From contig OX437086.1 in assembly GCA_949299565.1 (NCBI GenBank), positions 352,919-416,918 on the forward strand: a DNA stretch of 64,000 nucleotides, given 5' to 3'. A program made the position numbers and the translations under genes. The DNA is from an uncultured Bacillota bacterium (lineage in GTDB: Bacteria; Bacillota_I; Bacilli_A; RFN20; CAG-826). Of this stretch, positions 8,021-63,806 are shown one piece after another (the stretch's first letter is position 1; each line of letters opens with the position of its first letter). A model generated the notes under the pieces. It was not told the origin of the DNA, made no database searches, and worked only from the letters and a program-made list of their open reading frames with translations.

Positions 8021-8296
8021 ATGAATAAAGCTGATTTAATCGATAAAGTTGCTGACCAAGCTGAGCTCTCGCACCGTGATGCAGAGGCGGCGGTTGAAGC
8101 TTTACTCGATATCGTGACGAAGTCTCTTGAACGCGGCGAAGTTGTGAAACTTTCCGGCTTTGGCATTTTTGAGAAGAAGATGCGGGCTGCTCGCGAAGGC
8201 ACAAATCCTGCCACGCAAGCGAAGATTCAAATTCCCGAATCTTATTCAATTTCGTTCAAGGTTTCAAAGACTTTGAAAGAAGCTCTCAATAAATAA
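8021..8296 (+). CDS. hup: HU-family DNA-binding protein
   Basis: A 91-residue histone-like protein that bends and compacts DNA as a dimer. It matches HU over its full length: the N-terminal helix pair MNKADLIDKVADQAELSHRDA, the GEVVKLSGFGIFEKK turn, and the beta-arm region ending in a short basic helix. The arm reads REGTNPATQAKIQIP, the HU pattern (R-x-G-x-NP-x-T) with the intercalating Pro. The gene is monocistronic, with a strong ribosome binding site and its own terminator, as expected for an abundant protein. Confidence 0.97.
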   Translation: MNKADLIDKVADQAELSHRDAEAAVEALLDIVTKSLERGEVVKLSGFGIFEKKMRAAREGTNPATQAKIQIPESYSISFKVSKTLKEALNK

Positions 8297-8317: not shown

Positions 8318-8342
8318 GCTCTCCTTCGGGAGAGCTTTTTTG
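8318..8342 (+). terminator. hup terminator
   Basis: GCTCTCC-TTCG-GGAGAGC followed by six T: a 7-bp stem with a stable UUCG loop. Confidence 0.93.
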
Positions 8343-8354
8343 TAAAATGGTAGT

Positions 8355-8975
8355 ATGAATTTACCATCCCCGTTTTTGAATCTTGCACACATATATGAAG
8401 AACACGGCTTCAATCTTTATTTAGTTGGTGGTTCTACTAGGGATTTCCTTTTGAATCGTCCTTTTCTTGATTTCGATTGTGCAACCGATGCCTTAATAGA
8501 GGAGGAGGAAAAATTTCTCCCGCCTTTTAAATCTCCATTCGCCATTTATGGATCCATCTCTTTGAATCTTGAAGGCTATAAATTCGATATCACAACTTTA
8601 AGAGAAGAAAGCGACTACGATGATTTCCGTCATCCGCGCGTTGTGAGATTCGTGAAGGATCCGTTTCTGGACGCCAAAAGACGCGATTTTACGATCAATG
8701 CTTTATATCTAAAAAGCGATGGGCAAGTTTTGGATTATTATGGAGGTCTGGATGATCTCAAAAACAAGGTCATCCGTTTTATCGGCGATCCTTTTGTTCG
8801 TGTCAAAGAAGATCCGTTAAGGATTTTAAGAGCCGAGCGTTTCGCGGATAATTTGGGCTTTTCTTTCGCTGAAGAAACAAAAATTGCCTTAGAGAAAGGA
8901 CGCTATCTCTTAAAGCACTTAAATCCTGCTAAAATACAGGAGGAAATGAGGAAAAGAAGCGATGAAAAAAACTAG
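8355..8975 (+). CDS. cca: CCA tRNA nucleotidyltransferase head domain (short form)
   Basis: Class II CCA-adding enzymes repair or add the 3' CCA of tRNAs. This 206-residue protein has the catalytic head: LVGGSTRDFLL with the DFDCATDA carboxylates (motif A, about residues 23-47), RRDFTINAL (motif B, about 109-117), FIGDPFVRVKEDPLRILRAE (about 140-159, motif C and after) and a motif-E-like NPAKIQEEM near the end. It stops there, where family members run on to about 350-450 residues with body, tail or HD domains. The stop overlaps dnaD by 14 bp and no continuation is seen in other frames, so the shortness looks real. TAAAAT lies 6 nt before the ATG, which has no Shine-Dalgarno. Confidence 0.85.
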   Translation: MNLPSPFLNLAHIYEEHGFNLYLVGGSTRDFLLNRPFLDFDCATDALIEEEEKFLPPFKSPFAIYGSISLNLEGYKFDITTLREESDYDDFRHPRVVRFVKDPFLDAKRRDFTINALYLKSDGQVLDYYGGLDDLKNKVIRFIGDPFVRVKEDPLRILRAERFADNLGFSFAEETKIALEKGRYLLKHLNPAKIQEEMRKRSDEKN

Positions 8976-9615
8976 TTTAGAAAACGCCATCAGCTTCCGT
9001 TATGCCCTCTTAGATTCTTATAAAAAACTTGGTTTAACTGAAGGCGAGACAATGGTGGCTCTCATGATTGACCATCTTTTAGAGCAAGGGAATAGTTTCA
9101 TCACTCCTGATCTTTTAGCCCTTCGAATGAATTATAGCGTTGAGGAATTAGACGCTATTTTGGTTGAACTATTAAAGAATGGCTATCTTACATACGAGAG
9201 CAAAGACGATAAATTGCGAGTTTCGATTAAGGGGTTGCGTTACGCTGTTTATAAAGAATTGAGAAGGACTTTGGCTCGCGAAGAAAAGGAAAACGAAAAT
9301 GAGCAAAGCAAAAATAACCTTCAGACATTGCTAGCGCTTTTTGAGGATAAATTGGCGCGACCTTTATCGCCTTTAGAGAAAGAAGTCGTGGCAAGTTGGC
9401 TTTCTTCCGGTTATAGCACTGAAGAAATAAAGGATGCTTTGATGGACGTTCTTCGTGAAAATGAGAGAAGTCTCAAGGCCGTTGAACATCAGATGAAAAA
9501 GCGGAGACGTTCTGATGACATCGCTAAAGAAGGCGTCAGCGCCATCGATGATAATTACAACGAAGACATCACAAAAGTTTTAGAGGAGGCCGCCAAGCTA
9601 TTCAATGAAGATTGA
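8962..9615 (+). CDS. dnaD: DnaD-family replication initiation/restart protein
   Basis: DnaD acts with DnaB and DnaI in loading the replicative helicase in Bacillota. The 217-residue protein has an N-terminal winged-helix domain (about residues 18-85, with GETMVALMIDHLL) and a C-terminal DnaD domain (about 120-195, LSPLEKEVVASWLSSGYSTE then a helix with DVLRENE), followed by an acidic tail. It overlaps cca by 14 bp and the next gene is nth, the same dnaD-nth pair as in B. subtilis. The ATG follows an AGGAGGAAATGAGG stretch in the cca tail that can serve as a ribosome site. Confidence 0.92.
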   Translation: MKKTSLENAISFRYALLDSYKKLGLTEGETMVALMIDHLLEQGNSFITPDLLALRMNYSVEELDAILVELLKNGYLTYESKDDKLRVSIKGLRYAVYKELRRTLAREEKENENEQSKNNLQTLLALFEDKLARPLSPLEKEVVASWLSSGYSTEEIKDALMDVLRENERSLKAVEHQMKKRRRSDDIAKEGVSAIDDNYNEDITKVLEEAAKLFNED

Positions 9616-10255
9616 ACCATCTTTCGTCAAAGAAGTGCTTCATGAAAAATATCCCGATAGTCAAGCCTTCCTCTCTTTCCATAATGATTTTGAGTGTTTG
9701 GTGGCTATCGTTTTATCGGCCCAAACCACTGATAAAGCTGTCAATAAGGTAACACCAGAACTTTTTAGATATTTTCCAACGATAGAAGCGATGGCTGTAG
9801 CCCCAGTTTCAGAAATTTATTCTTTAATTTCCTCTTTAGGCTTGGCTTCGAGCAAAGCACGTTACTTGTCGATGCTGAGCAAAATTTTAATGAATCAATA
9901 CGGCTCAACAGTTCCTCATGATTTCAAGACTCTTTGTAGCTTGCCGGGTGTTGGAACAAAAACGGCTGGAGTTTTTCTTTTAGAACGAGATGAGGCTAAA
10001 ACGTTTCCGGTCGATACGCACATTAAGCGTCTCGCTTACCGCTTTGGCTATTCTGCTTTGGAGGATTCGCCATTAAAGGTTACAAAGAAATTAGAAAAAA
10101 TCTTTCCGAAGGAAGAATGGAATTTTCTTCATCATGCTTTCATAAGCTTTGGTCGCAAGATCTGCAAAGCCTTAAATCCTCAATGTGCGGAATGTCCGTT
10201 TTTGGACAAATGTCCTTATTTAGCGAAGAAAAAGCGATCAACCTCTCTTAAATAA
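9605..10255 (+). CDS. nth: endonuclease III (DNA glycosylase/AP lyase)
   Basis: Nth removes oxidised pyrimidines and cleaves abasic sites. The 216-residue protein has the helix-hairpin-helix LPGVGTKTAGVFL with the catalytic Lys (K in GTKTAG), the catalytic Asp in FPVDTHIKRLAYR, and the C-terminal [4Fe-4S] motif CKALNPQCAECPFLDKC (C-x6-C-x2-C-x5-C). It starts inside the end of dnaD (11 bp overlap). Its last 40 bp overlap the end of recU on the opposite strand, so the two converge without a terminator between them. Confidence 0.97.
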   Translation: MKIEPSFVKEVLHEKYPDSQAFLSFHNDFECLVAIVLSAQTTDKAVNKVTPELFRYFPTIEAMAVAPVSEIYSLISSLGLASSKARYLSMLSKILMNQYGSTVPHDFKTLCSLPGVGTKTAGVFLLERDEAKTFPVDTHIKRLAYRFGYSALEDSPLKVTKKLEKIFPKEEWNFLHHAFISFGRKICKALNPQCAECPFLDKCPYLAKKKRSTSLK

Positions 10256-51622: not shown

Positions 51623-51708
51623 TGGTGCCCAGAACCGGACTCGAACCGGTATGGTATTGCTACCGAGGGATTTTAAGTCCCTTGCGTCTACCATTTCGCC
51701 ATCCGGGC
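51623..51708 (-). tRNA. tRNA-Leu (TAA)
   Basis: 86 nt. Acceptor GCCCGGA/TCTGGGC (one G-T), discriminator A, CCA encoded. Anticodon stem AGGGA/TCCCT around loop CTTAAAA gives TAA. It has the long variable arm of a class II tRNA. It is last in the operon. Confidence 0.97.
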
Positions 51709-51717
51709 AGTGTGAGG

Positions 51718-51792
51718 TGGTCTCCCGTGACGGTTTCGAACCGTCGACCCCTTGATTAAAAGTCAAGTGCTCTACCACTGAGCTAACGGGAG
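51718..51792 (-). tRNA. tRNA-Lys (TTT)
   Basis: 75 nt. Acceptor CTCCCGT/ACGGGAG perfect, discriminator A, CCA encoded. Anticodon loop CTTTTAA in stem CTTGA/TCAAG gives TTT. Confidence 0.97.
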
Positions 51793-51796
51793 AGAG

Positions 51797-51871
51797 TGGC
51801 TGGGGTGGCTGGGATCGGACCAGCGCATGACAGAGTCAAAGTCTGTTGCCTTACCTCTTGGCTACACCCCA
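51797..51871 (-). tRNA. tRNA-Gln (TTG)
   Basis: 75 nt. Acceptor TGGGGTG/CACCCCA perfect, discriminator G, CCA encoded. Anticodon loop CTTTGAC in stem ACAGA/TCTGT gives TTG. Confidence 0.97.
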
Positions 51872-51875
51872 AGGA

Positions 51876-51959
51876 TGGTGGGCGAAGATGGATTTGAACC
51901 ACCGAACCCGAAGGAGCTGATTTACAGTCAGCCGCGTTTGGCCACTTCGCTATTCGCCC
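51876..51959 (-). tRNA. tRNA-Tyr (GTA)
   Basis: 84 nt. Acceptor GGGCGAA/TTCGCCC perfect, discriminator A, CCA encoded. Anticodon loop CTGTAAA in stem GCTGA/TCAGC gives GTA. Long variable arm, as in bacterial tRNA-Tyr. Confidence 0.97.
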
Positions 51960-51984
51960 AATTCACCGCACGTCGCATCTGGGG

Positions 51985-52059
51985 TGGTGGATGCTACAGG
52001 GTTCGAACCTGTGACCCCCGCCTTGTAAGGGCGATGCTCTCCCGCTGAGCTAAGCATCC
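51985..52059 (-). tRNA. tRNA-Val (TAC)
   Basis: 75 nt. Acceptor GGATGCT/AGCATCC perfect, discriminator A, CCA encoded. Anticodon loop CTTACAA in stem TCGCC/GGCGG gives TAC. First in the operon. Confidence 0.97.
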
Positions 52060-63721: not shown

Positions 63722-63806
63722 TGGTGCGGGAAACCAGAATCGAACTGGCATGGATTGCTCCATACGCCCCTCAAACGTACGCGTCTACCAATTCCGCCAT
63801 TCCCGC
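63722..63806 (-). tRNA. tRNA-Leu (GAG)
   Basis: 85 nt. Acceptor GCGGGAA/TTCCCGC perfect, discriminator A, CCA encoded. Anticodon stem TACGT/GCGTA (one T-G) with loop TTGAGGG gives GAG. Long variable arm of a class II tRNA. Confidence 0.95.

Follow-up and report, generated by a model that had tools for sequence, protein, structure and literature searches.

The short cca gene and its neighbourhood

The window, by which we mean the whole stretch of 64,000 nucleotides analysed from an uncultured Bacillota bacterium, carries on its forward strand a short cca gene (8355–8975, +), whose product of 206 amino acid residues was assigned as a putative catalytic-core (head and neck) tRNA nucleotidyltransferase on the basis of PF01743, motifs and fold. 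As an earlier note on this DNA had described, the end of this open reading frame (ORF) overlaps a dnaD-like gene (8962–9615, +; PF21984, 1.1e-15; PF07261, 6e-05); the overlap measures 14 nt, and the next gene in the run is that of an nth-like endonuclease III (9605–10255, +; PF00730, 2.5e-23). On the upstream side, a small ORF that is hup-like by eye (8021–8296) stands ahead of a terminator-like hairpin with a T-run (8319–8342, +; one found, against a mean of 0.6 in shuffled sequences), located just upstream of cca. The hexamer TAAAAT, regarded as a possible −10 element on the strength of a genus-wide element count, lies 6 nt before the ATG (8343–8348, +).

In 32 of the 33 short loci of the genus, the next ORF starts −34 to +4 nt from the cca stop and is dnaD-like by eye, the dnaD identity having been tested with Pfam in the window only. 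Terminator-like sequence was also seen, again by eye, upstream of cca in most of the other genus loci. A −10-like element (at least 5/6 positions) is present 4–8 nt before the cca start in 14/22 genus loci, which are not independent, since some of them are close relatives; shuffled sequences gave a mean of 0.7 and a maximum of 4 in 500 shuffles, and none was counted in six search windows further upstream. No Shine-Dalgarno sequence above a 4/6 match was observed before cca in 22 genus loci, and a promoter scan of the window that required a −35 element as well did not list TAAAAT at 8343–8348. Judging from these sequence patterns, the cca mRNA is probably leaderless. In a Bacilli MAG (L122:951-2646), a longer cca of 354 residues has as its immediate next ORF one that looks, by eye, like dnaD, and therefore this gene order also occurs without the short form.

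Domains and conserved residues

PF01743 (PolyA_pol head) matches residues 21–141 of the short protein (6.8e-29, 101.2 bits against a cut-off of 23), and PF12627, which spans neck and body, is matched only at model positions 1–33 of 64, with 15.1 bits, below its cut-off of 22. NF009814 (CCA enzyme) is the top family for the protein, with 181.8 bits versus 115.1 bits for PcnB, a score that does not reach the NF009814 equivalog cut-off of 290. The protein stops after the neck helices (motif E region, residues 168–206; 8856–8972, +; recognised from the partial PF12627 match and the modelled helices), at the point where full enzymes continue into the body.

Alignment with the Geobacillus enzyme 1miv delimits the stretch VGGSTRD...DFD (residues 24–41; 8424–8477, +), which we take to be motif A, with Asp39 and Asp41 as the presumed catalytic carboxylates; RRDF (residues 109–112; 8679–8690, +) is presumably motif B, and EDPLR (residues 152–156; 8808–8822, +) is motif D. 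When 31 short proteins, representing several of the order's families, are aligned, GG25-26, R29, D30, D39, D41, R109-F112, E152, D153, P154, R156, R159 and R162 are invariant in all 31, and they include the class II catalytic DxD and RRD residues (D39, D41, R109, R110 and D111) as well as the EDxxR template of the neck (E152, D153 and R156). The earlier observation that the catalytic motifs of the head are kept thus extends to the relatives. In full enzymes, as far as the accessible parts of the sources describe it, motif D serves as a template made of amino acids, with which the CTP or ATP to be added pairs (PMC8563995, PMC3925840).

Translation of 22 of the 34 short proteins of the genus, with start codons of our own choice, gave 203–214 residues, with 49 invariant positions in common. 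Values of dN/dS lie between 0.03 and 0.11 in the seven of 13 genus pairs with computable dS, the other six, among them the two that involve the protein of the window, being saturated at synonymous sites. Purifying selection, as read from these codon comparisons, acts on the short cca among the relatives. The ORF is a single real gene composed of head and neck, with body and tail absent, and chance is no issue, because the short form recurs across an order.

Fold and relation to known enzymes

AlphaFold2 models the 206-residue protein confidently as a single fold (mean pLDDT 94.4), with neck helices at residues 173–188 and 191–205. Its residues 1–206 superpose on residues 1–207 of Geobacillus 1miv (Z 23.4, rmsd 1.9 Å, 197 residues), so that the description of the protein as "head-only" was right as to the absence of body and tail, but has to be widened to head plus neck. 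In the sequence alignment, residues 10–200 of the short protein pair with residues 11–201 of the 404-residue 1miv, ungapped between motifs A and B. The structural alignment gives 34% identity over 197 aligned residues, and the D39/D41, RRD and EDxxR residues are kept.

Head and neck are thus common to the short protein and the class II CCA-adding enzymes (Geobacillus 1miv; Planococcus 6qxn/7otr), whereas the latter, according to the accessible part of the source, have 377–404 residues with body and tail (PMC8563995), both of which are missing from the 206-residue protein. The parts of the two papers available to us place motifs A–E of full enzymes in head and neck, and the tRNA-binding site in body and tail (PMC8563995, PMC3925840), which hold the acceptor and T-stem, an Asp/Arg pair in the neck reading the incoming base (PMC3925840). 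Because full enzymes bind tRNA via body and tail, the short protein corresponds to a catalytic core without the tRNA-binding half.

We take the entries 1vfg and the 3wfo–3wfs series to be A-adding and CC-adding class II enzymes; they have the head/neck fold in common with the short protein (Z 21.2 for 1vfg_B and 15.9 for 3wfr), but keep body and tail, which the short protein does not have. A- and CC-adding class II enzymes have partial activities, as stated in the accessible part of the source (PMC3925840). The structure 2la3 (NP_344798.1, 191 residues), titled "reveals a CCA-adding enzyme head domain", is also a stand-alone head-like nucleotidyltransferase, but a distant one (Z 9.2, 156 residues aligned, 17% identity). 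In the part of the open-access literature that was searched, no truncated or head-neck-only CCA enzyme is reported.

Search for a second enzyme or detached domains

The possibility that a second nucleotidyltransferase or a detached domain completes the enzyme, raised in the earlier note, was not borne out in the window's genome. The short cca product is the sole PF01743 protein of this single-contig genome of 1.06 Mb (99.98% complete), the profile search finding no second one. PF13735 (tail) has no match there at E values up to 1, with a profile of limited sensitivity that is above its cut-off in only 3/14 control genomes; among 61 genomes it is above cut-off in five, all with full-length enzymes, and in short-enzyme genomes it gave a single chance-level match (G052, E 0.12). 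PF12627 is above cut-off in 15 of the 61 genomes, always inside the cca gene itself, and its only match in the window's genome is also cca (E 0.007).

Distribution of the short form

What was first seen in a single genome is found in 34/37 genomes of the genus and in 153/192 genomes of the order (sampled at a completeness of at least 85): the short enzyme is a trait of the order and not peculiar to the window's genome. The 34 genus genomes each have one short frame with no inner stops, by which a frameshift or assembly error was ruled out; of the other three, G011 has a full-length gene, G031 has two pieces on two contigs, and G024 has no match.

In the order, the short open frames measure 202–317 residues between stops. 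Of those above 290 residues, to which G079 and G087 also belong, five were checked (G002, G018, G095, G099 and G100), and these are due to upstream read-through, with a gene of about 201–211 residues. Longer forms of family f3 (328–574 residues) account for 15 of the 192 genomes and full-length forms, defined by a frame of 362 residues or more, for another 15; G081, where frames of 505 and 222 residues occur together, and G039, where the gene is in three pieces, count as mixed or fragmented, and seven have no PF01743 match. Among these seven, G104 and G131 have a completeness of 96–97%; complete loss of the enzyme is possible in these two and in the other five, and cca may be dispensable, given these seven cases. 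In two f3 loci (L007 and L019), the head is fused to an M19 dipeptidase (Peptidase M19, membrane dipeptidase; Pfam), and ten more f3 genomes have frames of similar length, a likeness in length only. L088 and L091 encode proteins of 325–328 residues that extend more than 100 residues past the neck, a stretch without any further Pfam match at E 0.1. A separate gene scan of 24 loci located no gene in G065, G064, G082 and G138.

Among 149 genomes drawn from the class, 18 with a match belong to the order and 110 with a match lie outside it, only one of which (G249, 226 residues) has a best frame shorter than 300 residues; 21 had no match, and the 20 of these that were identified are all outside the order. 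A wider scan gave at least 594 matches, the 80 best of which were analysed; the closest of these come from Bacilli, Bacillales and Erysipelotrichia MAGs. They comprise 68 frames of 354 residues or longer and 12 that, counted from their first start codon, are below 250 residues (Bacillota contributing 11 and Patescibacteria one). At least four of the 11 Bacillota sequences duplicate order genomes (L111/L118 correspond to G023/G026 and, by identity in the tree, L113/L116 to G021/G010). The Patescibacteria MAG (UBA926; L131:2492-3190) has a head-neck form of 232 residues, which is possibly an independent truncation.

Encoded CCA in tRNA genes

The window contains five tRNA genes for Leu, Lys, Gln, Tyr and Val (51623–52059, −) and a tRNA-Leu(GAG) gene (63722–63806, −). 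All six encode CCA, as already noted, and genome-wide CCA directly follows the discriminator in 47/47 tRNA genes. The same holds for two other short-enzyme genomes, with 38/38 tRNA genes in G152 and 15/15 read genes, of 38 found, in G063; the window's own genome (G000) and G152 are the only short-enzyme genomes read at every tRNA gene found. Among genomes with full-length enzymes, CCA is encoded in 42/42 tRNA genes of G154, in 30/30 of both G041 and G145 (with the partial hits G041:C84 and G145:C108 left out), in 43/44 of G011, in 4/45 of G060 and in 2/15 read genes, of 46 found, of G065.

A count of the T-arm+CCA pattern was run over all 192 genomes, the reversed pattern giving at most 5 per genome. 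The 153 short-enzyme genomes have a minimum of 20 and a median of 40, and the lowest of them (G102, G103, G134 and G184, 20–24 by pattern count only) may have partially lost encoded CCA; the seven genomes with no PF01743 match have 24–45. In the 15 full-length genomes, counts run from 3 to 43, only G060 (3) and G065 (4) falling below 25 and 12 others, G011 aside, reaching 25–43, so that encoded CCA is kept in 12/15 and nearly so in the 13th, G011. By this count, encoded CCA has collapsed in 0/153 short-enzyme versus 2/15 full-length genomes (2/192 overall), and the earlier suggestion of a repair-only role fits these comparative data. The contrast is statistically modest, because the collapse in G060 and G065, which are congeners, is probably one event.

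Within their genus, g19 (family f5), G062, G063 and G066 have short frames of 227–243 residues and counts of 35–37, and full-length enzymes are found in G064, with a count of 43, and in G060 and G065. This fits a sequence of events in which a short enzyme with encoded CCA was followed by gain of a full-length enzyme and then by loss of encoded CCA. The statement that full length permits the loss of encoded CCA is based on this one clear case and on one tRNA of G011, and we regard it as a good experiment of nature, but a single one, which falls short of proof.

Ancestry of the short and full-length forms

A tree of 81 head regions was built from 55 of the 56 order loci, L006 being left out because it has no anchor motif, together with 26 of 29 loci picked from the 80 of the wider scan, where three were dropped for the same reason. 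It placed 51/54 short rows and five f3 rows together, with a support of 82. A second tree, from which four long-branch rows were removed, had 57/57 short and f3 rows on one side of a branch with a support of 83, which is not strong; the removed rows include the short forms L131 and L099, both outside the main group in the 81-row tree. L086, also short, has an unresolved placement in the 81-row tree and falls inside the short group in the second.

The full-length enzyme of G011, a member of the window's own genus, clusters with those of G060, G041 and G042 (support 97), and constraining it to its own genus was rejected (p-AU 3.4e-6, for a group named after the tree had been seen); the neighbours of its gene are not dnaD. 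By the tree, it is not an orthologue of the window's short cca, and a frameshifted full-length orthologue, which the earlier note had considered, was not encountered, the genus orthologues being short too. Taking the trees together with the placement and neighbours of the G011 gene, much of the order probably inherited the short form from a common ancestor, and full-length genes that arose elsewhere were probably acquired by some lineages.

Possible function of the short enzyme

On balance, we favour the reading in which the short cca product mends trimmed CCA ends, performs no de novo CCA synthesis and stands halfway to a loss of the Mollicutes type. The gene would make a working catalytic core of a class II tRNA nucleotidyltransferase whose tRNA-anchoring body and tail have been lost. 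Such an enzyme would take the exposed 3' ends of tRNAs transcribed with CCA and restore A76, and perhaps also C75, after trimming, with the EDxxR residues of the neck selecting CTP or ATP. De novo addition of CCA to immature tRNA, which leans on body and tail, would be unneeded and probably inefficient.

The lineage would then represent a stage between a full cca and the total absence of the gene that has been reported in Mollicutes. In Mollicutes, according to the accessible part of the source, encoded CCA makes de novo addition unnecessary and the enzyme has been lost (PMC4014445). The short-enzyme genome has encoded CCA in common with them, but there, in the same partial account, cca is gone (PMC4014445), whereas here the catalytic half is retained under selection. 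Since Mollicutes with encoded CCA lost the enzyme, the lineage appears to be at an intermediate stage that selection maintains.

A broader form of the same reading, to which we give somewhat less than an even chance, holds that a minimal head-neck core of about 205 residues mends CCA throughout the order, in cells that have no anchoring domain and in which encoded CCA makes de novo synthesis needless. Some lineages would have returned to a full-length enzyme by acquiring one from elsewhere, and in one genus encoded CCA would then have decayed almost to nothing.

A change of trade, by which the protein would act as a general 3'-end nucleotidyltransferase on other RNAs, for example in decay tailing or tRNA quality control, appears improbable to us. 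Losing the tRNA-binding half should loosen substrate choice, and the head of the poly(A) polymerase 3aql is almost as close in fold as 1miv (Z 21.6 versus 23.4); nevertheless, the protein scores higher with NF009814 than with PcnB (181.8 versus 115.1 bits, though below the cut-off of 290), aligns with 1miv free of gaps from motif A to motif B, and keeps EDxxR.

We also see rather little room for a catalytic core that needs a partner, such as a processing enzyme already on the tRNA or an RNA-binding protein of unrelated type, to anchor the substrate in trans. A replacement may be needed for the body and tail by which full enzymes, in the accessible account, hold the acceptor and T-stem (PMC3925840), but the PF13735 tail was not found in the genome with its insensitive profile, and PF12627 always occurs within cca.

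That the protein is a complete CCA-adding enzyme, head and neck sufficing for all three additions and encoded CCA being merely inherited, is unlikely: its catalytic and templating residues are kept, and 12/15 full-length genomes, and nearly also G011, retain encoded CCA too, but the collapse of encoded CCA is seen in none of the 153 short-enzyme genomes versus two of the 15 full-length ones. A decaying pseudogene remnant, which might be suggested by the genomes with no match (7/192 in the order and 21/149 in the class draw), is very hard to reconcile with dN/dS of 0.03–0.11 in seven pairs, invariant residues, and the likeness among relatives in the start region and in the overlap with dnaD.

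If repair of trimmed ends by the short enzyme, the reading favoured here, is true, nature separates CCA repair from de novo synthesis, which raises the question whether body and tail serve de novo synthesis alone. The protein would offer mechanistic work a very small, ready-made catalytic core, and the close relatives that combine a short enzyme with encoded CCA, a full-length enzyme with encoded CCA or a full-length enzyme without it would constitute a testbed for the dependence of tRNA ends on enzyme architecture. The short cca is a plausible intermediate toward the loss of cca described in Mollicutes.
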